Part shown: piece after piece, positions 6,050 through 21,442 of the stretch
How the letters are laid out: the number at the start of each line of letters is the position of its first letter
Numbering within the stretch: position 1 is the stretch's first letter
NCBI GenBank assembly: GCA_017508555.1
Contig: JAFVYP010000181.1
Coordinates: 1 to 43,426, forward strand
Reading direction: 5' to 3'
Length of the DNA stretch: 43,426 bases
Source: Lentisphaeria bacterium
GTDB taxonomy: Bacteria; Verrucomicrobiota; Lentisphaeria; Victivallales; Victivallaceae
Position numbers and translations under genes: made by a program
The notes under the pieces: model-generated
Databases searched by the model: none
What the model saw: the letters and a program-made list of their open reading frames with translations, nothing else
What the model was told of the DNA's origin: nothing

Positions 6050-6114
6050 TTATGTAAATTCTGTTCTGATTGCTGTTTTGTTGAACATCAAATATACCAA
6101 GGAGAATGACTGCA

Positions 6115-6666
6115 ATGAAAAAATCAATGTCCTGGCTTCCGGCGATCCTGGCTGTTGTCGCGGGTGCCGCATTTATCTGGTACATGAACTACTCTTTTGA
6201 AAACTCTCCCCTTGTCCGGGAGCTCTTTTCCGGTTCCGGTTCGGGCGTTTTGGGAGAGGTCAATGAAAACAGCGGGGAGACCCTGGCCATGCGCGCCCGT
6301 TTCACCGGCAAGATCTCCATGCTGATCTTTTCGGCCATCACGGTTTTGCAGTTTGTGGCCTTCGGTGCCGGGACCGGTGTGATCTCCCGTATCCGTACGA
6401 GCAGTGAAAGTCCTGAACTCAAGCTCAAGAGACTGGATAACTCCGACATTATTTTCGACGTGCCTCTTTATGTGGGATTGTTCGGTACGGTCTCCGCATT
6501 TCTGGTGATGACATTTTCTCCCCAGAGCAGCCGTTTGATCGCATACAGCTCCACACTGATCGGCATTATTTTCAGTCTGCTGCTGCGCCTGACCATGCAC
6601 TACCCGCTCAAAAACAAGCTGCTGGGCATTGCAGGGAACAGTGAAAACAAAGGAGCTGACAAGTGA
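6115..6666 (+). CDS. Four-helix membrane protein, possibly TolQ/ExbB/MotA-like
   Basis: A 183-residue integral membrane protein with predicted helices at about 7-25, 66-88, 115-133 and 138-158. The pair around DVPLYVGLFGTVSAFLV (GLFGTV at 121-126), then a helix rich in small residues, recalls the third and fourth helices of TolQ/ExbB/MotA proton-channel subunits, where a GLLGTV-type motif is typical; this is inference from a short pattern. ATG at 6115 is preferred over 6106 because AAGGAG ends at 6104, too close to the first. The next gene begins with a GTG that overlaps this stop by 4 bases. Its partner has an Asp in its only membrane helix, as expected for the second stator subunit. Confidence 0.75.
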   Translation: MKKSMSWLPAILAVVAGAAFIWYMNYSFENSPLVRELFSGSGSGVLGEVNENSGETLAMRARFTGKISMLIFSAITVLQFVAFGAGTGVISRIRTSSESPELKLKRLDNSDIIFDVPLYVGLFGTVSAFLVMTFSPQSSRLIAYSSTLIGIIFSLLLRLTMHYPLKNKLLGIAGNSENKGADK

Positions 6667-8441
6667 ACAGGGCGATCCTGATCGTCATCTGCGACTTTCT
6701 GGTCTCTGCGATGCTTTCCATGATGACCGGCATGGTCGCCTCCCACACCGGCGGTACGGGGGTGGGGTTGGATGAAAACACCACGCAGGTCCTGCTGGCC
6801 CAGCTGGATGCCAGCAAGAGGGAGTTGGAGCGTGTCCGCAGAGAGCTGCGCGCTGCTGCCGAAAAAATGGGGCAGCACGGCCAGTACGATCCCCAGCTGC
6901 GGGAGATCGCTGAAAAACTGGCACAGAATCGTTTCAAACGGGAACAGCTCGAAGAGATCCTGCGGCGGACGCCCCGGAATACCGGGAAACTTTCCGCTGA
7001 AACGCTGAAAAAAAGACTGGATGAGGAAAAGCTCAAACGCTACCGCACCGAGATCGAACTCAAAGACCGCCAGGAAAATCTCAAACAGGCCCGTGAGGAC
7101 ATCAAAGAGTACCGTTCCGAGAGCAAAACGCTCCGCAAGGAACTGGCTGAGTCCAATAAGAACCTGCGCGAGATGGCCTCCACCTACGGGGATGCCCGCC
7201 AGAAGATCGCCGCCGCAGAAGCCGCCGCAGCCGGCAACAAAAAGGAGCTGGCTCAAAAGGAACAGGAACTGGCCCGGAAAGAGGCTGATCTCTCTGCCGT
7301 CCGCGAAGCGCTGACAGAAATGTCCAAACGTGTGGGGCAGGCCGATACCCAGGCCCGCAAACTGCAGAACACGCTGGCCTTCACCACCGGAAAACTCAGC
7401 ACCACAGAGCGGGATCTTGCCGGATACCGGGATCGTTTCAACCGTATGCAGCGGGAGCTGGCAGCGGTCAAACTTCAGCGGAACGAGGCTGTCCGCAACC
7501 GGGAGGAGATGGAAAATCTTGTCCGCCGCACCGTCGCGGATCTCACCCGCGCCCGCACCGATCTGGAACAGACAAAGATCGCTGCTGAAAAAGATCATAA
7601 GCAGGCCGTGGCCGTCAAAGCCAAACTGGTTGCGGCTGAGACCATGCTGGCCGATACACGCCGCCAGCTTCAGACCAATGTCCTTGAAAGTTACAGCGGG
7701 GCGGCTTTGCGCCTGAAAGTCAGAGTCACCGAATCCCGCTTTTTCATCAACCAGCAGGGCGGAGGACTGTATTATCTGCCCCTGGTCAGGTTCGGCAGCA
7801 AAACCTTTGTCACCGGATTTTTCCGGACCTTTGCCGGCAACGGTGAAGTTCCCATGATGTTCCGCAACGTGAAGGAGCTGCTTTACGAAGCGGTCCGTCC
7901 CGGCAGCGACGGCAAAAGCATTGTTGTCAAAGGACCTCTGCTTTCTCTGCCCCGGGAACAGAGGGTGGCCGCTCTGGAGGTGGCTCTTCCCGGAGCAAAA
8001 CCGCTTAAGATCATCACCCGTTCCCAGCTGGCCAAACGGGGCATCCATCGGCTGTATCTTTTCAAAAACAGCTCTTTCGGACGGGAGTGTGCTGAACTGG
8101 GCGGACGCTGTTCCTATGATCTCTTCAACAAAACGGGCAACCTGCTCATCCGCAACGCTGCCCGCGGCACCGGTAGCGAACTGCGGGCTGAACCGGGAGA
8201 TTTTGTCCTGACAGGCGAGGGGGATTTCGCCGGTATCGTCACGGGACTTTCCTCCTCGGATCTGGGCCGCCGGCAGACAGCTCATGTCTATGTTTTCGAG
8301 GATGAAAAGGTCTGGGAAAATGCCGACAGGATCCGTCTCTACCGGGAGCCGGGAAAAGGTTTTGCTGAGTTTGCTCAAAAGGTCCGTATCATCGACCACA
8401 AGATCACCGGCGCGAACAACAGGGCAAGACGGAGGCGATGA
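6663..8441 (+). CDS. Membrane-anchored long coiled-coil protein with Asp in its TM helix
   Basis: A 592-residue protein starting with GTG inside the previous stop. Residues 4-25 form a single membrane helix with a buried acid, ILIVICDFLVSAMLSMM (Asp11), as in MotB and TolR/ExbD. Residues of about 45-335 are an almost continuous charged coiled coil (ASKRELERVRRELRA, EIELKDRQENLKQAREDI). Residues 345-592 form a separate globular domain, probably periplasmic, with RGIHRLYLFKN, a Cys pair (REC and GRC) and EPGDFVLTGEGDFAGIVTG; the last has a faint resemblance to an inactive trypsin-like fold. The next gene overlaps by 4 bases. I propose a mechanical or sensory partner of the kinase; no established family was recognised. 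Confidence 0.8.
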   Translation: MNRAILIVICDFLVSAMLSMMTGMVASHTGGTGVGLDENTTQVLLAQLDASKRELERVRRELRAAAEKMGQHGQYDPQLREIAEKLAQNRFKREQLEEILRRTPRNTGKLSAETLKKRLDEEKLKRYRTEIELKDRQENLKQAREDIKEYRSESKTLRKELAESNKNLREMASTYGDARQKIAAAEAAAAGNKKELAQKEQELARKEADLSAVREALTEMSKRVGQADTQARKLQNTLAFTTGKLSTTERDLAGYRDRFNRMQRELAAVKLQRNEAVRNREEMENLVRRTVADLTRARTDLEQTKIAAEKDHKQAVAVKAKLVAAETMLADTRRQLQTNVLESYSGAALRLKVRVTESRFFINQQGGGLYYLPLVRFGSKTFVTGFFRTFAGNGEVPMMFRNVKELLYEAVRPGSDGKSIVVKGPLLSLPREQRVAALEVALPGAKPLKIITRSQLAKRGIHRLYLFKNSSFGRECAELGGRCSYDLFNKTGNLLIRNAARGTGSELRAEPGDFVLTGEGDFAGIVTGLSSSDLGRRQTAHVYVFEDEKVWENADRIRLYREPGKGFAEFAQKVRIIDHKITGANNRARRRR

Positions 8442-10975
8442 CTGACGCAGGAAATGCGCCGGGAGAACAGACCTCCTCCGTCCCCGGTGTCAGTGACAAC
8501 GAGGCAACGCTTATCGCCGGCACGTCGCCGGAGGATATCTCTTTTACACCGTTGGAAATGCGTCAGCGTCTGGGGCTCCCCGATGATGAGAGGATGAGCA
8601 ATTACAACAATCTTCATCCCATCGGACTGGGCGGTGTCGGTGCTGTCTATTCCGGCAGAGAACCGGGAACGAACCGCGAAGTCGCCATCAAAATTTTAAG
8701 GCCCCAGTACCGTTACAGCACCGACAGGATAGAGTCTTTTGTCCAGGAGGCCCGGACGACGGCCCAGATCGACCATCCCAACGTGGTCCCTGTTTATCGT
8801 TTCGGCGTGTTCGATAATGAGGGTGTGTTTTTTTCCATGAAGCGTGTTCAGGGAGAAACTTTGCGGAATGTGCTGCGTAAATTGGAGGAAAACCGCAAAG
8901 GCTATGCCCGTAAATACACGCTCCGCCGTCTGGTGGATATCTTTCTTGCCGCCTGCAACGGCGTCGCTTTCGCCAATAAAAACGGTATCCTCCACGGAGA
9001 CCTCAAACCCGGCAATATCATGATCGGGGAGTTCGGTGAAGTGCTGGTCATGGATTGGGGCATGGCCCGTTACCGTCCGGAACTGGATACCATCGAGGGA
9101 CGGAAAAAGATCCGGCTCGGTTCTCAGGATGAACTGCGCTTTGAACCTCTGCCGGAAGATGACAAACCCATTGGCGGAACGCCTGTTTTTATGGCGCCGG
9201 AACACTTGACGGGGCAGGAGAAAAATCTGACGGAAAGCTCTGAAGTCTATTCTCTGGGAACGATCCTTTACTCCATCCTCACCTGGAAAATGGCGCCTTA
9301 CGATACCGATCAGCCCCGGGAAAAGATCGTTCAGCAAGTTGTCCGGGGGCGTTTCATCTCTCCGCGCCGCGCCGGCAACAAGCGGCAGACCGTTCCCCGG
9401 GAGCTGGAGGCCATCTGCTGCAAAGCCATGGCCAGAGAGCCGCGGAAACGTTATAAAAATGTCAGTGAGATGGTGGAGGAGATCCAGAACTACCTTGACG
9501 GTTATCCGGTGCGGGCTTATTCTCCCTCACCTCTTTATCATCTGGGCAAGTGGCTGTTCCGTCACCCGCTGATCCCTGTCACCCTGGTCACGCTGATTCT
9601 GGGCGTGGGCGGATTCAAAGCCTATACCGTGCTGGTAAAAGAGGCTGAAGACCGTTCCCGTTTCAGACTGGCTGAATACAATGCCAACAGAGCTTTTGAT
9701 TATGCCTCCACTGTCCGCAATTCTCTGCGTAAACTCCGTCACGGGGATGACTTGGAGTATGATGAGCGTTTCCGCCTTTTCCGGAGCATCAGCCGTCAGG
9801 CGGCTCTGATGGCCAACTCCAACGCCATGGCGCTGGCCTCGCTTTCGCTGCTGCCCCGCACGATCGGCGATGCCAATTCTCCCCGTCTGGTGCTGGCAAG
9901 GGAGATCTTCCGCAGTGCCGTTGCCCTCTACCGGGAAATCGGCGAACAATCCCTGCTTCAGGAGGCCGTGGATAACTACCGCAAACGCTGGGGAACTCTT
10001 TTTCTGGAAGTCCTTCAGCACGACCCGGAGCTGCTGCGCCTGATCACATTGACGGAGGCCCACAGCGGCTTCCTGAAGATCGAACTGCCTGCGGATAAAA
10101 AATGGCAGGTGCAGATCAGGACGCTTTCAGGCAAAATCGTGGATATCAAAGGAAAAACACTTGACAATCTGCAGCTGGCTGCGCAGGACTATGTTGTCCG
10201 GTTCACGTCTGAAAAGAATGAAAGTTTCACCTTCCCTGTCCGTGTATCCTCCAGCAAAAGCGTGACGCTGGCGCCGGGATTTCCCGACCGTATTCCGGAA
10301 AATATGTGTTATGTCGGTGCAGGAGAGATCCCTGTCCACGACCTGCTCCACTCCCGGGCAGGCGGGGATGTGCCGCCCTTTTTCATCGCCAGATATGAGG
10401 TGAGTATCGGCGAATATCTGAAGTTCTGGCATGCGCTTCCTGCGGCAGAACGGCTCAAACATATTCCCGTGACCTCCATTTCCCGCGACGGGACACCCGC
10501 CCGTATCTGGGATGCGGCGGGGATGCTCCGGGCTCCCTACCGGGAAGAGCTGCCTGTAACGGGGATCTCTGCCGCCTCCGCAGAGGCTTACTGCCGCTGG
10601 CTGGGAAAGCAGCTCGGGCTGAAAATAACGCTTCCCACGATCGCCCAGTGGCGCAAGGCCGCCTTCTTTGCTGATCCGGAGGAGGCCCGCAAAACAGGCT
10701 TGTTTTACACTTCCGTCAACGGCAAACTTCATCCGGCAGGGGCGCCGGTCAGGTCGAAGCCGCAGGATGTTTCCGTTTTCGGGGTGGTCAATACCCGCGG
10801 CAATGTCAGGGAGATGCTTGCCAACTCCCGCGGACGGACAAATCTGGTCATCGGCGGATCTTTTCTGACCTCCGGAAGCATGACTTTGCTTCAGCGTCCC
10901 CAGTTTACGATTTCAGGCGACAACGATATCGGTTTCCGTTTTGTCGCTGATATATCTCCATCATCCAACAGATAA
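8438..10975 (+). CDS. Membrane Ser/Thr protein kinase with SUMF1/FGE-like domain
   Basis: An 845-residue protein. The kinase domain (about 55-355) has the glycine loop IGLGGVGAVY (62-71), Lys85 in VAIK, the catalytic loop HGDLKPGN with Asp188, DWG at 206-208 and PVFMAPEHL. HGD replaces HRD, making it a non-RD kinase, and DWG replaces DFG. A membrane helix lies near 377-398 (IPVTLVTLILGVGGF). After a helical region comes a C-terminal sulfatase-modifying-factor-like domain (about 645-843) with FFIARYEVSIGEYLKF, LPTIAQWRKAA and GFRFVAD. The catalytic cysteines of true formylglycine-generating enzymes are not seen, so this domain is probably a ligand- or protein-binding module. It is coupled by a 4-base overlap to the coiled-coil gene. 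Confidence 0.9.
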   Translation: MTDAGNAPGEQTSSVPGVSDNEATLIAGTSPEDISFTPLEMRQRLGLPDDERMSNYNNLHPIGLGGVGAVYSGREPGTNREVAIKILRPQYRYSTDRIESFVQEARTTAQIDHPNVVPVYRFGVFDNEGVFFSMKRVQGETLRNVLRKLEENRKGYARKYTLRRLVDIFLAACNGVAFANKNGILHGDLKPGNIMIGEFGEVLVMDWGMARYRPELDTIEGRKKIRLGSQDELRFEPLPEDDKPIGGTPVFMAPEHLTGQEKNLTESSEVYSLGTILYSILTWKMAPYDTDQPREKIVQQVVRGRFISPRRAGNKRQTVPRELEAICCKAMAREPRKRYKNVSEMVEEIQNYLDGYPVRAYSPSPLYHLGKWLFRHPLIPVTLVTLILGVGGFKAYTVLVKEAEDRSRFRLAEYNANRAFDYASTVRNSLRKLRHGDDLEYDERFRLFRSISRQAALMANSNAMALASLSLLPRTIGDANSPRLVLAREIFRSAVALYREIGEQSLLQEAVDNYRKRWGTLFLEVLQHDPELLRLITLTEAHSGFLKIELPADKKWQVQIRTLSGKIVDIKGKTLDNLQLAAQDYVVRFTSEKNESFTFPVRVSSSKSVTLAPGFPDRIPENMCYVGAGEIPVHDLLHSRAGGDVPPFFIARYEVSIGEYLKFWHALPAAERLKHIPVTSISRDGTPARIWDAAGMLRAPYREELPVTGISAASAEAYCRWLGKQLGLKITLPTIAQWRKAAFFADPEEARKTGLFYTSVNGKLHPAGAPVRSKPQDVSVFGVVNTRGNVREMLANSRGRTNLVIGGSFLTSGSMTLLQRPQFTISGDNDIGFRFVADISPSSNR

Positions 10976-10982
10976 AGCAGTT

Positions 10983-12944
10983 ATGATCGATTTTCAAAAT
11001 GTCTCCAAAAGTTATTCCGGAGAATACATCCTCCGGAATGTCTCCTTCAGGATCAACCACGGTGAACGGGCCGGTATCGTCGGTCCCAACGGCGCGGGCA
11101 AGAGTACCCTTTTCGGTATGATAACCAACACCGTCATTCCCGACTCCGGCAGCATCATCATTCCGAAAGATCACCGTCTGGGGATCATGCGCCAGCATAT
11201 CGACAGCAGTGATACCGTCCGGACCCTTCTGGAATTTACGGCCGATGCCATCCCGGAACTCAATACGTACAGTGCGCGTATCGAAGAGATCGAAGAGCTT
11301 CTGGCTGACGGCTCCTGTTCCGCAGATGCGCAGGACTCTCTGCTGCGGGAACACGGCAGACTTCAGACGGCCATCGAGCATCTGGGGGCATACAGTCTGG
11401 ATATGGAGGCCCGGCAGGCCCTTTCCAGTCTGGGATTTCCGGTCAGCAGTTTCGACCGTCCTCTGGGAGAGTTTTCCGGCGGCTGGCAGATGCGTGCCGC
11501 TCTGGCCCGGGTGCTGATCTCCCATCCCGACATCCTGCTTCTGGACGAACCCTCCAACTATCTGGACGTGCCTGCGGTGGAGTGGCTCTGCCGCTATCTG
11601 GCCAATTTCCCCGGAACGCTTCTGCTGATCTCCCACGACCGCTTTCTGCTGCGGAAACTTGCGGATATTACCATTGAGGTCAATTCCGGATGCGTCACCC
11701 GTTATCCCGGCAACTACGATTTTTACCGCACAGAACGGGACAACCGCCAGAAGATGCTTGAAGCCGCCAAGAAGAATACCGACCGCAAAAAAGAGCAGAT
11801 GGAGCGGGTCATCGACCGTTTCCGCGCCAAAAGCACCAAAGCCGCTCTGGCCAAAAGCATGCAGAAAAAACTGGATAAGATCGAAGATGTGGAGCTGCCC
11901 GATTCTCTGGAATACAAAGGCGTCATCCGTTTCCCTGCGCCGCCGCCGGGAGGAACAGAGGCCTTCCGTTTTGAAGACCTGGCCTTCGGATATGAACCGG
12001 GAAAACTCCTGTTCCGGCATGTGGATCTTGCTGTGGATGCCGGAGCCAAGTGCGCTTTTATCGGATACAACGGTCTGGGCAAAACCACGCTGCTCAAGCT
12101 GCTGACGGGGAAACTCAAGCCCACGGAGGGGTCCGTTGTTCCCGGACACCACAGCATCATCGGTTATCAGGCTCAGGAGTTCGGCGATCTGGATGCCGAC
12201 GGCATGAGCGTTTACGATGCCGTCAAACAGGCTCTGCCCCCCGGAGCCTCCACGGCCAACCTGATGAACGTGCTGGGCTCCTTCGGATTTTCCGGAGAGG
12301 CCTCCGGCAAACTCTGCAAAGTTCTTTCCGGCGGTGAAAAGATCCGCGTTCAGTTTGCCCGTATTTTCGTCAATCCCCCCAATCTGCTTGTGCTGGATGA
12401 ACCGACCACCCATTTGGATGTTCAGGCCCGTGAACTTTTGCAGAACGCCTTACGGAATTTTCCCGGAACGGTCTGTTTTGTCAGCCATGATATCGAATTT
12501 GTCCGGGGCGTGGCAGAGACGATCATTGCTCTGGAAAACGGCTCCGTCAAAAAATATTTCGGCAATTACGATTATTATCTGGAAAAATCCGGCCAGCTGG
12601 CCAATGATTCGGAACAGACGAAAGAGATCCCTCTTGCGCCCAACTCCGGAGGACTGGCCAAAGACCGCCGCCGCGCCCGCGCCCAGGCCCGGCAGGCGAT
12701 TTCCGGACAGTACCGCAAAGCCAAAGAGCTGCTGGCCTCTCTGGAAAAGAAACTCGATGAGGACAGCGAAAAGAAAAAGGTCCTTATCGCCAAACTTTCC
12801 AGCGGTATGAAGGTGGATTTTGCCGCTGTCAAAAAAGAGCTTTCCGAGCTGGAAAAATCTCTGGAGGAGACTGAGGCCCGCTGGGAGGAGACCGCCGAAG
12901 AGGTGGAGGCTCTCCGGCTGGAAAATGCCCGGATCAACGGATAA
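10983..12944 (+). CDS. ABC-F family ATPase (ribosome-associated type)
   Basis: A 653-residue soluble protein with two ABC ATPase domains and no membrane segment. Domain 1 has Walker A GPNGAGKST, signature FSGGWQMR and Walker B ILLLDEPSNYLD. Domain 2 has GYNGLGKTT, LSGGEKIR and LLVLDEPTTHLD. Between them is the charged helical linker (RKKEQMERVIDRFRAKSTKA) that in ABC-F proteins reaches the ribosomal P-site tRNA. The C-terminal 90 residues are a coiled coil as in Uup-like members. The start MIDFQNVSKSYSG at 10983 is 7 bases after the kinase stop; the in-frame ATG at 10941 lies inside the kinase gene and lacks an RBS. It is probably a translation factor, cotranscribed with the kinase operon by read-through. 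Confidence 0.92.
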   Translation: MIDFQNVSKSYSGEYILRNVSFRINHGERAGIVGPNGAGKSTLFGMITNTVIPDSGSIIIPKDHRLGIMRQHIDSSDTVRTLLEFTADAIPELNTYSARIEEIEELLADGSCSADAQDSLLREHGRLQTAIEHLGAYSLDMEARQALSSLGFPVSSFDRPLGEFSGGWQMRAALARVLISHPDILLLDEPSNYLDVPAVEWLCRYLANFPGTLLLISHDRFLLRKLADITIEVNSGCVTRYPGNYDFYRTERDNRQKMLEAAKKNTDRKKEQMERVIDRFRAKSTKAALAKSMQKKLDKIEDVELPDSLEYKGVIRFPAPPPGGTEAFRFEDLAFGYEPGKLLFRHVDLAVDAGAKCAFIGYNGLGKTTLLKLLTGKLKPTEGSVVPGHHSIIGYQAQEFGDLDADGMSVYDAVKQALPPGASTANLMNVLGSFGFSGEASGKLCKVLSGGEKIRVQFARIFVNPPNLLVLDEPTTHLDVQARELLQNALRNFPGTVCFVSHDIEFVRGVAETIIALENGSVKKYFGNYDYYLEKSGQLANDSEQTKEIPLAPNSGGLAKDRRRARAQARQAISGQYRKAKELLASLEKKLDEDSEKKKVLIAKLSSGMKVDFAAVKKELSELEKSLEETEARWEETAEEVEALRLENARING

Positions 12945-12997: not shown

Positions 12998-13020
12998 TCC
13001 GTCAAGGAGGAAGGTTGATT

Positions 13021-13596
13021 ATGCTCTGTGACAAATGCAAGAAAAATGAAGCCACGATCCATGTGAAAAAAGTTTCAGGCAGCAAGATAGAATCTCTTCA
13101 TTTATGCGCCGCGTGCGCAAAAGAAAATGAGGAACAGGGCGCTTTGGGCGCATTCGGTTTCAATCTGGCTGAAGTCCTTTTCAATATCGGTGAGATCAAT
13201 AAACAGGAGTCCTCTGCTGAGAAGGCCGCATCAGAAAACAGCGGCAGTTCAGGAGAAGAGGGGCCCTGCTGTCCCGTCTGCGGCTGGAATATGGATAACT
13301 TGCGCAAATTCAACGGCCGCGTGGGCTGCGCTTCCTGTTATGAGACTTTTTCTGAGATCATCGCCGATGCCCTGACCCGCATCCAGCGGGGGAAAGTGCA
13401 TCTGGGCAAGAGACCCGGGGCCTCTGATCCTCTGGCCAATACAGCCGCGCTGCAAATAGAGATCGAACGCAATAAAAAGGAGCTGGCCGGATTCATTCTC
13501 CGCGAAGAGTACGAAAAGGCCGCCGTCTGCCGGGATAAGATCGCCGATCTCAACGCCTGTCTGGCCCTGTTGAAAGGAACGGATGATGAACAGTGA
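13021..13596 (+). CDS. mcsA: McsA-like zinc-finger/UVR protein, McsB activator
   Basis: A 191-residue protein. In Firmicutes McsA binds and activates the arginine kinase McsB. Two pairs of CxxC are visible: C3/C6 with C29/C32, and C84/C87 with C103/C106, each suited to bind one zinc. Residues of about 145-182 form a UVR domain (IERNKKELAGFILREEYEKAAVCRDKIADLNA region), the UvrB/UvrC/ClpC interaction helix pair. The ATG at 13021 is chosen over an in-frame TTG at 13015, since AAGGAGG lies 10 bases before the ATG but only 4 before the TTG, and McsA proteins begin with the first zinc knuckle. Its 3' end overlaps mcsB by 14 bases. Confidence 0.9.
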   Translation: MLCDKCKKNEATIHVKKVSGSKIESLHLCAACAKENEEQGALGAFGFNLAEVLFNIGEINKQESSAEKAASENSGSSGEEGPCCPVCGWNMDNLRKFNGRVGCASCYETFSEIIADALTRIQRGKVHLGKRPGASDPLANTAALQIEIERNKKELAGFILREEYEKAAVCRDKIADLNACLALLKGTDDEQ

Positions 13597-14656
13597 TCTT
13601 ATTCAGCGTCTGCTTGCCAGCCCCGTCAGTTTTCTTGCAGATTCCGGTCCGGATGAGGATATTGCCATTTCAAGCCGTATCCGGCTGGCCAGAAATGTGC
13701 GCGATCTGCCCTTCCCCTGTGCCGCTGGGCCTCAGGAAATGGAACAGGTCTGTCAGCTGGTCCGCGCCGCCGCCCGTTCCTCCGGCACTTTGGGCTGTCC
13801 CGATTGTCTGGAGTTCAGGATCGGAGAACTTTCCGCCACAGACCGGGAGATCCTTCTTGAACGGCGGCTGGCCAGTCGGGAGTTGATCGGCAATCTGGCT
13901 GGCGGATGTCTGCTGGTCAAGGGAGACGGCTCCTGCTCCGTTATGGTCAACGAAGAGGATCAGCTGCGTATTCAAGTCCTTGCGCCCGGTTTTCAGCTGG
14001 AAAAGGTCTGGAACAAGATCAATGCCCTGGATAATGAACTGGGAAAAGAACTGGCGTATGCTTTTGATGAACAGCTGGGATATCTGACCTGCTGTCCCAC
14101 CAATGTAGGAACGGGTATGCGCGCCTCCGTCATGCTCCATCTGCCCGGACTGGTCATGACCGGAAAAATCAATGCCACGATCCACGGCATCAACAAACTC
14201 AATCTGGCGGTGAGAGGCATTTTCGGCGAGGGATCCGAAAATCAGGGCAATCTCTTTCAGGTTTCCAATCAGATCACCCTCGGGGACAATGAAGAGCATA
14301 TTATCGAAGAGCTTTCCAAAGTCATCCGCCAGCTCATCAACCATGAAAAAGCCGCCCGGATCCATCTGATGGAACACGATCAGGCCTCCCTGCTTGACCA
14401 TGTGGGACGCTCTTACGGTATTTTGCGCCACAGTTATAAACTCTCGGCCAAAGAGGCGCTCAACTGCCTCTCCGGTCTCCGGACAGGGGTGGATCTGGGA
14501 CTCTTCAACAATGTGGATATCCACAGAGTCAATCAGATGTTCCTGACGATCCACCCCGCTCACCTGCAAAAAAGTGCCGGAAGAAACCTTTCCGCCGCTG
14601 AACGGGACGTTTTCCGCGCCTCCTATTGCAGACAGCTGCTGGCAAAAGGCTCTTGA
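13583..14656 (+). CDS. mcsB: Protein-arginine kinase McsB
   Basis: McsB phosphorylates arginine side chains and in Gram-positives marks proteins for ClpCP. This 357-residue protein has the guanido-kinase hallmarks: ISSRIRLARN near the N-terminus, VNEEDQLRIQVLAPG, CCPTNVGTGMRASVMLHLPGL and the GIFGEGSENQGN loop. Near the C-terminus RDVFRA (341-346) matches the RDxxRA phosphoarginine-sensing motif reported for McsB, so the allosteric site looks intact. It lacks the small N-terminal domain of creatine/arginine kinases, as expected. Start is ATG at 13583 or 13586, after GAAAGGAA. No ctsR or clpC is next to it, unlike the Firmicute operon; a repeat element follows directly. Confidence 0.93.
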   Translation: MMNSDLIQRLLASPVSFLADSGPDEDIAISSRIRLARNVRDLPFPCAAGPQEMEQVCQLVRAAARSSGTLGCPDCLEFRIGELSATDREILLERRLASRELIGNLAGGCLLVKGDGSCSVMVNEEDQLRIQVLAPGFQLEKVWNKINALDNELGKELAYAFDEQLGYLTCCPTNVGTGMRASVMLHLPGLVMTGKINATIHGINKLNLAVRGIFGEGSENQGNLFQVSNQITLGDNEEHIIEELSKVIRQLINHEKAARIHLMEHDQASLLDHVGRSYGILRHSYKLSAKEALNCLSGLRTGVDLGLFNNVDIHRVNQMFLTIHPAHLQKSAGRNLSAAERDVFRASYCRQLLAKGS

Positions 14657-16037: not shown

Positions 16038-16730
16038 TCACCATCCTGCGCCGATGCGGATACCGTGATAGGTGAAATCCAGAGGGGCCAGAACGGCTTC
16101 GGGCAGGGCGGGGTGAAAGAATTTGGCATCTCCGCCTGTCAGAACGATTGATACGATATTGTGTTTTTCGCGGGCAATGCGGATATATTCCCTGACCATG
16201 CCGATACATCCGCAGTCGATACCGAAAGCGATGGTATTGCGCGTGCCTGCGCCGATATCCGCAGGCACATTCCGTGAAAGCGGGATATCCGGCAGCTGAG
16301 CTGTTCCGGCAAAGAGACTGCGGCGCATCAGGGATCTTCCCGGGGCGATGGCGCCGCCGCGGAAGACTCCCTCCTGATCCACCAGCTCCATGGTGATGGC
16401 TGTACCGCAGTCCAACACGATCCCCGGCAGGGGATAAAAAGCCGCCAGAGCTTCGGCGTTGGCAACGCGGTCCGCTCCCAGCGTGGAGCAGTCGATACGG
16501 GTGAAATCCACCTTTCCGCGGCTGTTGGAGGCATCCAGAAAGTGGATGTTGCGGCTCTCAAGCTCTCTGCGCAGCTTGGGGACAACTGATATGGCGGCGA
16601 TTTCCCCCTCCGGCAGATCGTTGACGGAAAAATTTTCCGTGTAAAACGTCTGCATCAGGCTGATCCCCCGGGGGGGATCATACTGCGCAAGAGTCGTGTG
16701 GGTGTTGCCGATATTGAGCAGATATTTCAC
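16038..16730 (-). CDS. coaX: Type III pantothenate kinase
   Basis: CoaX phosphorylates pantothenate, the first step of coenzyme A synthesis. The 230-residue protein has the ASKHA-fold signatures: an N-terminal phosphate loop in LLNIGNTHTTLA, GADRVANAEA, the catalytic region VLDCGTAITMELVD, and GGAIAPGRSLM. The first motif is normally DxGNT; here Asn6 takes the place of the usual Asp (NIGNT), which is worth checking because that Asp is usually a catalytic residue. The start overlaps the end of the PilC/GspF gene by 4 bases, so a housekeeping CoA enzyme is translationally coupled to the secretion genes. Length is a little shorter than the usual 240-260 residues. Confidence 0.9.
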   Translation of the reverse strand: MKYLLNIGNTHTTLAQYDPPRGISLMQTFYTENFSVNDLPEGEIAAISVVPKLRRELESRNIHFLDASNSRGKVDFTRIDCSTLGADRVANAEALAAFYPLPGIVLDCGTAITMELVDQEGVFRGGAIAPGRSLMRRSLFAGTAQLPDIPLSRNVPADIGAGTRNTIAFGIDCGCIGMVREYIRIAREKHNIVSIVLTGGDAKFFHPALPEAVLAPLDFTYHGIRIGAGW

Positions 16731-17992
16731 GACAGTTTTTCAATGATCTTGGTGAGCGGCATGAACAGAGCGATAACGATAGATCCCACGATACCGGCCA
16801 GAGCCACGATCATCAGAGGTTCGATCAGTGAGGTCAGGGCGCTGACGGCGTTATCCACCTCATCCTCATAGGTATCGGCGATCTTGTTGAGCATTTCGGA
16901 GAGTTTACCGGTTTCTTCGCCCACTTCGACCATACTGATGACCATGTCTTCAAACACATGGGTCTCTCCCAGAGGTTTGGCGATACCTTCACCCTCTTTG
17001 ACCGCGTCATGCACCTTCTGGATGGCATTGGCCACCACATCGTTTCCGCTGGTCTCTTTGACGATGGAAAGAGCCTGAAGCACCGGCACACCGGAACTCA
17101 TCAGCGTTCCCAGCGTGCGGCTGAAACGGGAAACGGCTGTCTTGGAAACGATCGGTCCGAAGATGGGAATATTGTATTTCACCCAGTCCATGGCGAATTT
17201 TCCCAGAGGGATCTTGACGATGATCTTGAAGAAAGCGACCACGCCCACAATACCGCCCACATAGTAATACCAGCGGGAGATCAGGGTGTTGCTTATTCCC
17301 AGGATCAGCAGCGTGACGCCGGGCAGCGGTTCATTGGGGCCCAACAGGTCCTTGAAGATCTTTTCAAAGTTCGGCACGATGAAGATCATCAAACCCACCA
17401 CGGCCAGCAGTGAGATGGAAAGCACCACGATAGGATAGATCATGGCAGATTTGACTTTTCCGGCGATCTTGGCAGATTTTTCCATGAAGGCCGCCAGACG
17501 GTCAAGGATCGTTTCCATCGCACCGGAGGCTTCACCCGCACGGACCATGTTGAGATAAAGTTTGTCAAAGGATTTGGGGTTCTGGGAAAGCGCTTCTGCA
17601 AAAGTTGCACCGCCTTCAACCGTTTCGGCCGTTTTGCCCAGAACGATTTTGACCACAGGATTTTTCGCCTGTTTTTCAAGGGTGTGCAGGGAGCGGATCA
17701 GGGGCAGACCCGCATCCAGCAGAATGGCCAGCTGACGGGTGACAACGGTCAACTCTTTCTTTTTGATGACCGTGGGACCCAGGGTCATATTGAATCCGCC
17801 GCCGCCTTTGGCCTTGGAGCCCTTACTGGACATCTTTTTGGCGGCCTCTTTGCCGACTTCAAGTTTGATGGATGTGGGAAACATTCCCTTGGCTCTCAAA
17901 GCCGCCATCACTGCTTCTTCATTGGCGGCCTGGATCTTGCCTTTCTGTTCCTTGCCTTTGGCATCCATCGCCACATAATTAAATTGGGGCAT
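16727..17992 (-). CDS. PilC/GspF family inner-membrane platform protein
   Basis: A 421-residue polytopic protein of the type II secretion / type IV pilus F family, which couples the cytoplasmic ATPase to pilin assembly. It starts MPQFNYVAMDAKGKEQKGKI, the usual soluble N-terminal segment, and contains two GspF domains (about 85-210 and 290-410), each with a LDAGLPL or MSSGVPVLQAL type motif followed by membrane helices (IYPIVVLSISLLAVVGLMIFI and the C-terminal PLMIVALAGIVGSIVIALFM). RBS GGGAGGA precedes the ATG. It lies 32 bases downstream of the second ATPase gene in the same operon. Confidence 0.93.
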   Translation of the reverse strand: MPQFNYVAMDAKGKEQKGKIQAANEEAVMAALRAKGMFPTSIKLEVGKEAAKKMSSKGSKAKGGGGFNMTLGPTVIKKKELTVVTRQLAILLDAGLPLIRSLHTLEKQAKNPVVKIVLGKTAETVEGGATFAEALSQNPKSFDKLYLNMVRAGEASGAMETILDRLAAFMEKSAKIAGKVKSAMIYPIVVLSISLLAVVGLMIFIVPNFEKIFKDLLGPNEPLPGVTLLILGISNTLISRWYYYVGGIVGVVAFFKIIVKIPLGKFAMDWVKYNIPIFGPIVSKTAVSRFSRTLGTLMSSGVPVLQALSIVKETSGNDVVANAIQKVHDAVKEGEGIAKPLGETHVFEDMVISMVEVGEETGKLSEMLNKIADTYEDEVDNAVSALTSLIEPLMIVALAGIVGSIVIALFMPLTKIIEKLS

Positions 17993-18024
17993 AATTCATT
18001 TCCTCCCGGATAAAAAACAATATA

Positions 18025-19710
18025 TCAGGTGTAACGGACGACTTCGTCCACGCTGGTCTCACCGTTGAAAATCGCCAGCAGTCCGTCCTCACGCAGGGGA
18101 CGCATACCCAGCTGACAGGCCTTGTCGCGGATCACGTTGGCGGGAGCGCCGGAGGAGATCATATCGCGCATCTCCTGGTCCACCGTCAAAAGTTCCGTCA
18201 GGGCTTTCCGGCCTTTGTAGCCGGTATTGTTGCAGATGGGACAGCCCTTGCCGTAGCAGAACTGGATACCCTCCACCTGCGCCCGTTCCAGACCCAGACG
18301 CTCCAGGTCTTCGTCCGTCGGCGTGTACATGGTCTTGCAGTTCTTGCAGACCCGGCGGATCAGACGCTGTCCCAGAACGCCCGCCAGTGAGGAGGCGATC
18401 AGGAAGGGTTCAACGCCCATATCCATCAGACGGGTCACGGTACTGGCGGCGTCGTTGGTGTGGAGCGTACTGAACACAAAGTGTCCCGTAAGAGAGGCTT
18501 CCACGGCGATCTGGGCCGTTTCAAAGTCACGGATCTCTCCTACCAGAATACGGTCAGGGTCCTGACGGAGGAAGGCGCGCAGCGCTTTCTGGAACGTCAT
18601 GCCCACGGCATCGTTGATGGGGCACTGCATGATGCCCTCGATATCGTATTCCACAGGGTCCTCGGCCGTCAGGAGCTTGTCTTCAGGATTGTTGATCTCT
18701 CCCAGCGCGGAGTAAAGCGTCGTCGTTTTGCCGGAACCCGTCGGGCCTGTTACAAGCATGATGCCGTTGGGCAGACGGATGATCTCGCGGATCTTTTCAA
18801 GCACGTCCTCGCCGATGCCCAGGGCATCCAGCTCCAGGTTCACCACGCTTCTGTCAAGCACACGGAGCACCACGGATTCGCCGTAGCTTGTGGGCAGACA
18901 GGATACACGCAGGTCCACGGGACGGCCGTTCATTTTTGTCTGGATACGTCCGTCCTGGGGACGGCGTCTCTCTGAAATGTTCAAGCCTGAAATGATCTTC
19001 ACACGGCTGATGACCGGTGTCGCCAGACTGCGGGGCGGCGGCGGCAGCTCATAAAGCGCTCCGTCCACCCGGTAACGGATACGGAAATCTTTTTCAAAAG
19101 GCTCAAAGTGGATGTCGGAGGCCTTGTCGCGGATTGCCTGCTGCATGACCACATCCACAAATTTGATGATCGGGGCGTCGTTGGCATGATCTTCGTCCTC
19201 CATGTCGGTCTCTTCGACATGTTCACCGAACTCAGCGACGATGTCGGCAACGGAATCCACCTTTTCAGGATAATACCGCAGAAAGGCCTTGTCAAATTCA
19301 TCAGGGTCGCAGGGAACGGGGATGATCGGTTTGCCAAGAATAAAGTGGACGGTCTCCACCACCTGATAATCCAGCGGACGGGACATGGCAAGGTAAAGAT
19401 TTTCTCCGTCGAACTGCACAGGAAGAACACCGTGGGTGCGGGCAGTGGCGTCATCCACCATATTGATGATATCCAGACTGATATCTCCGGCCCTCGGGTC
19501 CCAGACGTAGGAACCCAGGTTTTCAGCCATGAGTTCAAGCATCTGTTTTTTGGTCAGAATACCGAAGTTTTCAATCACTTCAAACGCTGTTTTTCCTGAA
19601 CGCTCACACTCTTCTGCGACCTCTGCCAGGTGCTTGGAAAGACCGGGGATATCGGACGCATGTTCGTTTTTGATCAGATCTATCAGCGCAGAACTTTCTA
19701 TATCCAGCAT
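18025..19710 (-). CDS. PilB/GspE-type assembly ATPase (second copy)
   Basis: A 561-residue hexameric motor ATPase of the type II secretion / type IV pilus family. It has an N-terminal GspE-N domain (to about 150), then a RecA-like domain with Walker A GPTGSGKTTTLYSAL (about 321-335), Asp box (DKLLTAEDPVEY), Walker B (DRILVGEIRDFETA) and His box (STLHTNDAAST). A zinc knuckle CKNC...CPIC lies near 445-500. All catalytic elements look intact. It follows a paralogue of similar length with a 22-base gap, so the two may form a mixed system or serve different pilus or secretion machines. The overall identity between them looks moderate, so the duplication is old. Confidence 0.94.
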   Translation of the reverse strand: MLDIESSALIDLIKNEHASDIPGLSKHLAEVAEECERSGKTAFEVIENFGILTKKQMLELMAENLGSYVWDPRAGDISLDIINMVDDATARTHGVLPVQFDGENLYLAMSRPLDYQVVETVHFILGKPIIPVPCDPDEFDKAFLRYYPEKVDSVADIVAEFGEHVEETDMEDEDHANDAPIIKFVDVVMQQAIRDKASDIHFEPFEKDFRIRYRVDGALYELPPPPRSLATPVISRVKIISGLNISERRRPQDGRIQTKMNGRPVDLRVSCLPTSYGESVVLRVLDRSVVNLELDALGIGEDVLEKIREIIRLPNGIMLVTGPTGSGKTTTLYSALGEINNPEDKLLTAEDPVEYDIEGIMQCPINDAVGMTFQKALRAFLRQDPDRILVGEIRDFETAQIAVEASLTGHFVFSTLHTNDAASTVTRLMDMGVEPFLIASSLAGVLGQRLIRRVCKNCKTMYTPTDEDLERLGLERAQVEGIQFCYGKGCPICNNTGYKGRKALTELLTVDQEMRDMISSGAPANVIRDKACQLGMRPLREDGLLAIFNGETSVDEVVRYT

Positions 19711-19732
19711 ACTCTTACTACTCTCCCTGTTT

Positions 19733-21442
19733 TTAAGAATCGTCGCGCAAGGTGACGAAGATCACCTCTTCCAGTGTGGAAATGCCTGCTTCCGCCTTGC
19801 GGATGGCGTCATCGCGCAGACTGCGCATACCGTTTTTACGGGCATGTTCTCTGATACGGCCGCTGGTTTCGTTGGCAAAGATCAGTTTGGCAATATCCTC
19901 AGTGACCTCAAAAATTTCATAGATGCCGATACGTCCCTTGTAGCCTGTGTAGCCGCAGGTCTGACATCCTTTGCCCTTGTAGAACTGGTGATTGGCCAGA
20001 TATTCCGGCGTCAGGCCCAGAACGCGGATCTCTCCGGCGCTGGGGGTATAGGGTTCTTTGCAGTCCTTGCAGACGCGCCGCAGGAGACGCTGCGCCATCA
20101 CCGCACGCAAAGAGGTGGCCACAAGGAAGGGTTTGACGCCCATATCCACCAGTCGCGTCACGGCGCCGGGAGCATCGTTGGTGTGGAGCGTACTGAACAC
20201 AAGGTGACCTGTCAGAGAGGCGTTGATAGCGATCTCTGCCGTTTCCACGTCTCGGATCTCACCGACCATGATGATGTTGGGAGCCTGACGCAGCATGGCG
20301 CGCAGAGCGGCTGAGAAGGTCATATCCACGTATCTGTCCACCTGCACCTGGTTGATACCGGCCAGCTGGTATTCCACAGGGTCTTCCACGGTGATGAGTT
20401 TGCGGGCCGGGGTGTTGATGGTGTTGAGAAACGCATACAAAGAGGTGGTCTTGCCCGAACCGGTGGGACCTGTCACAAGGAAGATGCCGTCCGGGTAGTT
20501 GATGATCTTGTTGACAAGATCCAGATCGTCTGCATAGAATCCCAGTTTGGGGATATCCAGCTGGATACTGCTTTTATCCAGAATACGCATGACGACGCTT
20601 TCGCCGAAGACCGTGGGGATGGAGCTGACACGCAAGTCCACATCTTTGTCGCCCACGATCACCTGGATACGTCCGTCCTGCGGGATGCGCTTTTCCGTAA
20701 TGTCCATGCGGGACATGATTTTGATACGGCTGGTGAAGTTCGCCTGAAGATATTTGGGCGGGCCATCCACTTCACGCAGCGCGCCGTCGATGCGGTAGCG
20801 GACGCGGTAACGCTTTTCCATGGGTTCAAAGTGGATATCGGAGGCCTTCATCTTGTAGGCATCGACGATCAGTTTTGTCACCAGACGGATGATGGGGGTA
20901 TCGTCATCTTCCCGTTCGGGGCCGCCGATATTGCTTTCTGCGACCTCTTCGATCTCCACATCTTCAGCATCGCTGAGCAGGCCGCCGGATTCCTCTTCCT
21001 TTTCCGCATAAAACTGGTCGATGATCTGCTGGATCTGTTTTTTGGGAGCTGCAACAGCATCCACATCGCCGCCGAGAAGATAGCGCAGCGTATCCAGCGT
21101 CTCCATATCTGCCGGATCGCTCATGGCGATGGTCAGCATATCGTCGTGTTTGGCCACGGGGATAACGCCGTAATGGCGGGCGATATCCACATCGAGACTG
21201 GCAATCACCTCTGCCGGGATCTCATATCCGGAAAGATCCATGATTTCCATGCCGTACTGCTGGGCAAGCATCGCCAGCAGCTCATCTTCATTGACTGCGC
21301 CGATTTCCACAAGCGCATCAATGATATCCATTTCGCCGAATTCCGACTCCAGTGCATGATCCCGGGCTGATGCGATCTGCTCATCCGTCACCATCCCGTA
21401 CTCTTTCAGCAGTGTCAGAATGTATTCAGAATCCCGTGCCAA
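19733..21442 (-). CDS. PilB/GspE-type assembly ATPase (first copy)
   Basis: A 569-residue motor ATPase with GspE-N domain, Walker A GPTGSGKTTSLYAFL (about 322-336), LITVEDPVEYQ, Walker B NIIMVGEIRDVETA, STLHTNDAPG, and the zinc knuckle CKDC...CQTCGYTG. An acidic insert (EKEEESGGLLSDAEDVEIEE) links the N-domain to the motor. The start is a TTG at 21442: GAGG lies 8 bases upstream, and the first in-frame Met (MVTDEQIAS) would remove part of the N-domain. It is first in an operon with the second ATPase, PilC/GspF and coaX, behind a strong promoter at 21499-21527. Confidence 0.93.
   Translation of the reverse strand: MARDSEYILTLLKEYGMVTDEQIASARDHALESEFGEMDIIDALVEIGAVNEDELLAMLAQQYGMEIMDLSGYEIPAEVIASLDVDIARHYGVIPVAKHDDMLTIAMSDPADMETLDTLRYLLGGDVDAVAAPKKQIQQIIDQFYAEKEEESGGLLSDAEDVEIEEVAESNIGGPEREDDDTPIIRLVTKLIVDAYKMKASDIHFEPMEKRYRVRYRIDGALREVDGPPKYLQANFTSRIKIMSRMDITEKRIPQDGRIQVIVGDKDVDLRVSSIPTVFGESVVMRILDKSSIQLDIPKLGFYADDLDLVNKIINYPDGIFLVTGPTGSGKTTSLYAFLNTINTPARKLITVEDPVEYQLAGINQVQVDRYVDMTFSAALRAMLRQAPNIIMVGEIRDVETAEIAINASLTGHLVFSTLHTNDAPGAVTRLVDMGVKPFLVATSLRAVMAQRLLRRVCKDCKEPYTPSAGEIRVLGLTPEYLANHQFYKGKGCQTCGYTGYKGRIGIYEIFEVTEDIAKLIFANETSGRIREHARKNGMRSLRDDAIRKAEAGISTLEEVIFVTLRDDS

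Follow-up and report, generated by a model that had tools for sequence, protein, structure and literature searches.

A phylum-wide gene pair, found here in a Lentisphaeria bacterium, that may work as an ion-driven membrane motor with a built-in coiled-coil stalk and a degenerate HtrA-type head

Cells use ion-driven motors of the TolQR/MotAB kind for flagella and gliding, for nutrient uptake, secretion and outer-membrane maintenance, and for defense against phages. In TolQ, residues T145 and T178 belong to a threonine ring that has been proposed to hold D23 of TolR (PMC8928145). In the Zorya system it is ZorA that carries the long tail, which lies in the cytoplasm, and the peptidoglycan-binding subunit is ZorB (PMC11890865). 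A survey has also described TolQ partners, Verrucomicrobia included, in which a vWA transducer is combined with an Asp transpore helix, and it expects more TolQ transpore-helix systems still to be found (PMC12204202).

Here we analyze three neighboring genes, g1, g2 and g3, from a Lentisphaeria bacterium (GenBank assembly GCA_017508555.1, contig JAFVYP010000181.1; the whole stretch of 43,426 nucleotides is referred to below as the window). The explanation that accounts best for the data, to which we assign a probability of roughly 60%, is that g1 and g2 form an inner-membrane ion-driven motor in which g2 carries the transducer, with a kinase added in Victivallaceae-type relatives. A search of the open-access literature, outside which most subscription papers fall, returned no description of the g1-g2 pair.

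Predicted architecture of the g1 and g2 proteins

The first gene, g1 (window positions 6115..6666, + strand), encodes a protein of 183 amino acids whose open reading frame, AlphaFold2 model and Foldseek matches point to a four-TM, TolQ/MotA-like channel-type subunit. Its ATG at 6115 is preceded by AAGGAG at 6099-6104; the alternative in-frame ATG at 6106 lies too close to this motif. Four TM segments were found by hydropathy, and the AlphaFold2 model (pLDDT 88) has helices at residues 5-30, 51-95, 100-131 and 136-181. The sequence GLFGTV sits in the third TM, with Thr125 within GLFGT, and Thr147 lies within AYSST in TM4. Alignment with 85 homologues showed a hydroxyl residue at position 125 in every case (Thr in 78, Ser in 7) and a polar residue at position 147 in every case (Thr in 80, Asn in 5), while G121, A143, Y144 and G150 were invariant across the 85 aligned pairs. 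The conserved face of TM3 is made up of L118, L122, T125 and F129, and that of TM4 of A143, T147, I151, S154 and R158 (shuffle p ~0.02 for each). The presence of Thr125 and Thr147 on these faces counts in favor of a motor function.

The second gene, g2 (6663..8441, +), begins with GTG and encodes 592 amino acids that would make up an Asp-helix subunit with a built-in stalk and a pseudo-protease head. Hydropathy gave a single TM, starting at residue 4 and containing Asp11, and the AlphaFold2 model places a TM helix at residues 2-22. The N-terminal helix is delimited as residues 1-22 (6663..6728, +), with Asp11 in a Cys-Asp-Phe motif. Asp11 is kept in 85/85 homologues while overall sequence identity drops to 21% (83 were found by pattern, and L160 and L162, which read MIDV, by eye); the flanking Cys10 and Phe12 are variable. 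Conservation within g2 is highest at the Asp-helix end, with mostly 66-78% identity vs mostly 26-51% for the head when the two closest relatives are left out.

Helix 1-22 is followed by a predicted coiled-coil stalk spanning residues 38-347 (6774..7703, +), which is helical in the AlphaFold2 model, draws matches from SMC-type profiles and contains an unbroken helix of up to 139 residues, or ~20 nm. Matches to SMC, Rad50, LmuB and JetC in the Pfam, NCBIfam and PADLOC scans were dismissed as reflecting coiled-coil composition, and none of these three scans assigned a family to g1 or g2. The stalk leads into a beta domain at residues 348-557 (7704..8333, +), assigned by Foldseek and alignments to an HtrA/DegS chymotrypsin-type fold. 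In a Foldseek search of the PDB, the model of this head matched DegP, DegS, DegQ and HtrA1, the best being DegP (E 5.9e-6, prob 1.00), with 66 matches at E<=0.001. The catalytic His-Asp-Ser of HtrA was not conserved in the homologue alignments of the head, where the only invariant residues were Gly and Asp positions (Gly512, Asp513, Gly524). The model thus describes a degenerate chymotrypsin-type HtrA/DegS fold, and the simplest reading is that the head may be a binding module of protease descent. Bacterial HtrA proteins are mostly periplasmic. An N-in, C-out topology of g2 is weakly favored by the charge bias around the helix (K+R of 1.0 before it, and acidic residues in excess after it).

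An earlier sequence-only reading of this DNA had described three genes overlapping by 4 bases, and the ORF check bore out both their positions and the overlaps (g1/g2 and g2/g3 in the window). Its four membrane helices in g1, with GLFGTV in helix 3, and its single N-terminal helix in g2, with Asp11, were recovered by hydropathy and AlphaFold2, the Asp being further supported by its conservation. The coiled coil and globular end of g2 are present as it had proposed, but the coil measures ~310 residues in the AlphaFold2 model, not ~290. The HtrA/DegS-type fold of the head, the phylum-wide occurrence of the pair and the long forms of g1 go beyond that reading.

Co-inheritance of g1 and g2 and their relation to known motors

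Judged by g1, the closest relatives are Lentisphaeria MAGs and Victivallis, and g1 is single-copy in 70/100 relatives. Within the order, g2 follows g1 in all 65 readable loci; of the 63 loci in which the overlap was measured, 46 have one of precisely 4 bases. A g1 profile finds 98/289 genomes of the phylum, among them many families outside the class, and a g2 homologue follows g1 in 20/20 distant loci read outside the order. When the same 195 genomes were searched with a g1 core profile and a g2 head profile, the two matched 76 and 77 genomes, with 75 in common; the genomes used for profile building match by construction, and many of the others are independent. The non-shared genomes were G086 (g1 only, the contig ending inside g2), G045 and G170 (marginal match). 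In G045 a g2 fragment is present and a partial g1 was detected in a separate g1 profile search. Co-conservation of the two membrane genes had been named as one test of the original proposal, and the 75 common genomes together with the adjacency of the genes exclude its absence. The genes g1 and g2 are thus a strict pair across the phylum, and the pair conservation, 4-base overlap, invariant Asp11 and GLFGT hydroxyl lie far beyond chance.

Both genes are missing from several families within the order and class (G061-G069 among them), so that the pair is patchy among nearer relatives and yet present in distant classes, by loss or transfer. In homologues from outside the class, the channel part of g1 is often preceded by an additional N-terminal region of ~350-400 residues (L157, L158, L163-L175). 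These long homologues are ~520-610 aa in length, and their extra region has its own first TM and gave no Pfam match. In a further subgroup (L156, L159-L162), [LI]DV replaces CDF in g2 and the pore position of g1 reads GS or GT, which possibly reflects a different ion or geometry.

To what extent g1 can be linked to described motors was assessed by profile and structure comparison. In hhalign comparisons with TolQ/ExbB homologues of related genomes, GLFGT of g1 aligned onto GLLGT, and A143/T147/G150 onto the A/T/G of the last TolQ/ExbB helix. Alignment of the template to E. coli TolQ chains from the PDB identified the two template threonines as T145 and T178 of TolQ, although the threonines are 22 residues apart in g1 vs 33 in TolQ. 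The hhalign probability was 10-20%, with scores of 28.7-30.4. Across four comparisons, block-shuffled templates reached the observed score in 0, 0, 2 and 0 cases per 100 (398/400 below), and 11 membrane-protein decoy families scored at most 20.5, all below g1. These controls point to a real g1-TolQ/ExbB signal; the sequence link itself is formally weak. In Foldseek searches with the g1 model, TolQ took ranks 1 and 2 (best E 0.25, which is not significant, with a large rmsd), and TolQ or MotA chains made up 14 of the top 25 matches.

Standard models did not recover either protein. PF01618 (MotA_ExbB) missed g1 in 21 genomes with E-values up to 10 allowed and in 41 members searched singly with E up to 1, and the g1 profile, also allowed E up to 10, failed to retrieve the TolQ/ExbB proteins of its own genome; the source genome encodes separate PF01618 proteins besides g1. 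PDB sequence-profile searches with g1, the g2 helix and the g2 head gave no relevant match, and g2 matched neither the ExbD nor the MotB plug profiles and showed no peptidoglycan-binding domain. Features of a B subunit that are present in g2 are the single N-terminal TM, the invariant Asp and the position of its gene adjoining g1.

That g1 matches motor proteins significantly neither in sequence nor in fold would suit a structural anchor, in which g1 holds the g2 helix by Asp-Thr/Ser hydrogen bonds with no ion flow and g2 serves as a fixed tether in the periplasm, its HtrA-like head binding an envelope partner. Buried polar contacts serve assembly too. However, an invariant Asp paired with two aligned hydroxyl positions on pore-type helices, in the context of GLFGT and A...T..G, is a motor signature that goes beyond the needs of assembly, and we regard the anchor as an unlikely alternative that still deserves to be taken seriously. 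The motor-type reading follows from the topology, both threonines, the invariant Asp, the co-inheritance and the top structural rank, and we propose with fair confidence that g1 and g2 work like an ion-driven motor of the TolQR/MotAB type. Given the hhalign probability, the Foldseek E-value and the lack of a PF01618 match, we say "works like" and do not claim family membership. The earlier suggestion of a TolQ/MotA-like channel with an Asp-helix subunit is therefore supported by topology, residues, co-inheritance and fold rank, with no significant sequence match.

The adjoining kinase and the genomic setting

The third gene, g3 (8438..10975, +), encodes 845 amino acids, with a Ser/Thr kinase domain at residues 56-340 (Pkinase, 6.3e-33), a TM at ~382-400 and a C-terminal FGE-like domain at 644-836 (FGE-sulfatase, 9e-18). 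The catalytic motifs HGDLKPGN and DWG are present, so that its earlier description as a membrane Ser/Thr kinase with an FGE-like domain holds by Pfam and hydropathy.

Whether the kinase is a working part of the g1-g2 machine is another matter. That the motor pair gates g3, or is gated by it, would fit the translational overlap in the window and the 51/63 assessable loci of the order in which a kinase adjoins the pair. Victivallis vadensis (L037) has all three genes of the operon. However, the pair stands without a kinase in the remaining 12 (L033, L034, L038, L041, L075-L077, L079-L081, L093, L094), which include a whole sister family and four loci from close relatives. Among these four, L033 and L034 have the ABC-F gene, which elsewhere comes after the kinase, immediately behind g2. 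None of the 20 loci read outside the order has a kinase next to the pair. Furthermore, the C-terminal regions of the kinases at this site differ, and some lack the FGE domain (L045, L047). Because the pair is kept without it both within and outside the order, g3 is an accessory, family-level addition to the pair in Victivallaceae-type gut bacteria. A force-coupled kinase, with g3 as the constitutive component that the sequence-only reading had made it, is accordingly improbable. The search for the three-gene cassette in relatives, which that reading had called for, recovered the pair phylum-wide; among the loci read, the kinase adjoined it only within the order, and no defense-island setting was seen.

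The operon neighbors are housekeeping genes: LptF/LptG, ABC-F, leucyl-tRNA synthetase and peptide deformylase. The ABC-F type ATPase gene (window 10984-12944, +) comes directly after the kinase and keeps its place behind the operon in most relatives. It is followed by two overlapping genes (13015-14656, +) that appear to resemble McsA and the arginine kinase McsB, the latter implying that another protein kinase, of an unrelated type, lies nearby. On the opposite strand (16727-21442, -) are a putative GspF/PilC-like gene and two tandem putative GspE/PilB-like ATPase genes.

A Zorya-type anti-phage system would fit two observations: Zorya is likewise built on a channel paired with an Asp-bearing subunit (PMC11890865), and g3 matches PADLOC kinase models. 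However, the PADLOC matches are limited to the kinase domain and the g2 coiled coil, with none to g1, and in a scan of the operon proteins the NCBIfam ZorA match reached only E 0.15 (10.9 bits vs a cut-off of 500). The housekeeping neighbors, the single copy per genome and the vertical pattern make a defense island unlikely, neither a peptidoglycan-binding domain nor a partner nuclease or helicase was seen, and the defense role offered in the sequence-only reading is very improbable. Equally far-fetched is that g2 is an inner-membrane lipoprotein, acylated at Cys10 with Asp at +2 as a Lol-avoidance signal and with no channel role: Cys-Asp occurs in 78/83 pattern-matched homologues, but we rejected this reading because the Cys is not invariant (the seven divergent homologues L156-L162 have Leu, Met or Ile in its place, and all of them keep the Asp), and in addition the residue before it is large and hydrophobic or Thr, unlike a lipobox, and the hydrophobic stretch continues past it.

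Proposed mechanism and comparison with known systems

As an ion-driven motor, the pair may be pictured with five g1 subunits in a ring around two g2 helices (5:2), the pore being lined by TM3 and TM4 of g1 with Thr125 and Thr147. The two g2 helices would stand in this pore with Asp11 as the ion carrier opposite the threonines, and the passage of ions would make g1 rotate against g2. In contrast to TolR and ExbD, g2 would be its own transducer: its coiled coil, presumably periplasmic, would carry force or position to the inactive HtrA-type head, which may bind a periplasmic, cell-wall or outer-membrane partner. In Victivallaceae-type operons the membrane kinase, with a putative periplasmic domain, perhaps reports on or regulates the same envelope process. 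What the data support directly are the gene order, co-inheritance, conservation, predicted helices, predicted head fold and accessory status of the kinase.

The new aspect is that the Asp subunit would itself be the transducer, ending in a degenerate HtrA/DegS-fold domain. No motor that has an HtrA-like head is known to us, which counts against the motor reading. More tentatively, at somewhat less than even odds, the pair may be an undescribed, phylum-conserved class of motor that unites in one chain an Asp pore helix, a coiled coil spanning the periplasm and a pseudo-HtrA head, and that is wired to a membrane kinase in Victivallaceae-type bacteria. Having all three in one chain would couple the ion gradient directly to an envelope partner. 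If this is correct, a further motor class present in more than one third of the sampled genomes of the phylum has been missed by standard profiles, and a transducer with a dead protease domain on the pore helix widens what such motors drive. It would also offer a two-gene system for asking how ion flow becomes force, and the kinase variants would permit a test of motor-to-signal coupling.

Compared with described systems, g1-g2 shares several features with TolQ-TolR and ExbB-ExbD: adjacent genes, a GLFGT hairpin, a Thr-bearing last TM and a partner helix with an Asp near its N-terminus. In contrast to these, g1-g2 is unmatched by the PF01618 and ExbD models, the TM3-TM4 loop of g1 is short, the small domain of TolR/ExbD is replaced in g2 by the stalk and HtrA-like head, and no separate TolA/TonB-like gene was seen beside the pair. 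With MotA-MotB it has in common an A subunit with four TM, and the Asp of MotB is followed by Phe, as in the Asp-Phe of g2; the pair differs in having neither a peptidoglycan-binding domain nor a large cytoplasmic torque domain. ZorA-ZorB also combines a channel, an Asp subunit and a very long helical extension, but in g1-g2 it is the Asp subunit that bears the stalk, and a peptidoglycan-binding domain was not seen. The transpore-helix vWA proteins resemble g2 in uniting an Asp transpore helix and a transducer in one protein. They end in a vWA domain and have recognizable TolQ partners, whereas g2 continues into a coil and HtrA-like head and its partner g1 is much more diverged and is missed by TolQ models. 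The HtrA/DegS proteases have the fold of the g2 head, but in g2 the catalytic residues are not conserved and the head is fused to a coiled coil and an Asp TM helix. Finally, membrane Ser/Thr kinases with an FGE-like domain have the same kinase-TM-FGE layout as g3, which is a kinase of an ordinary kind, unusual only in its operon partners.
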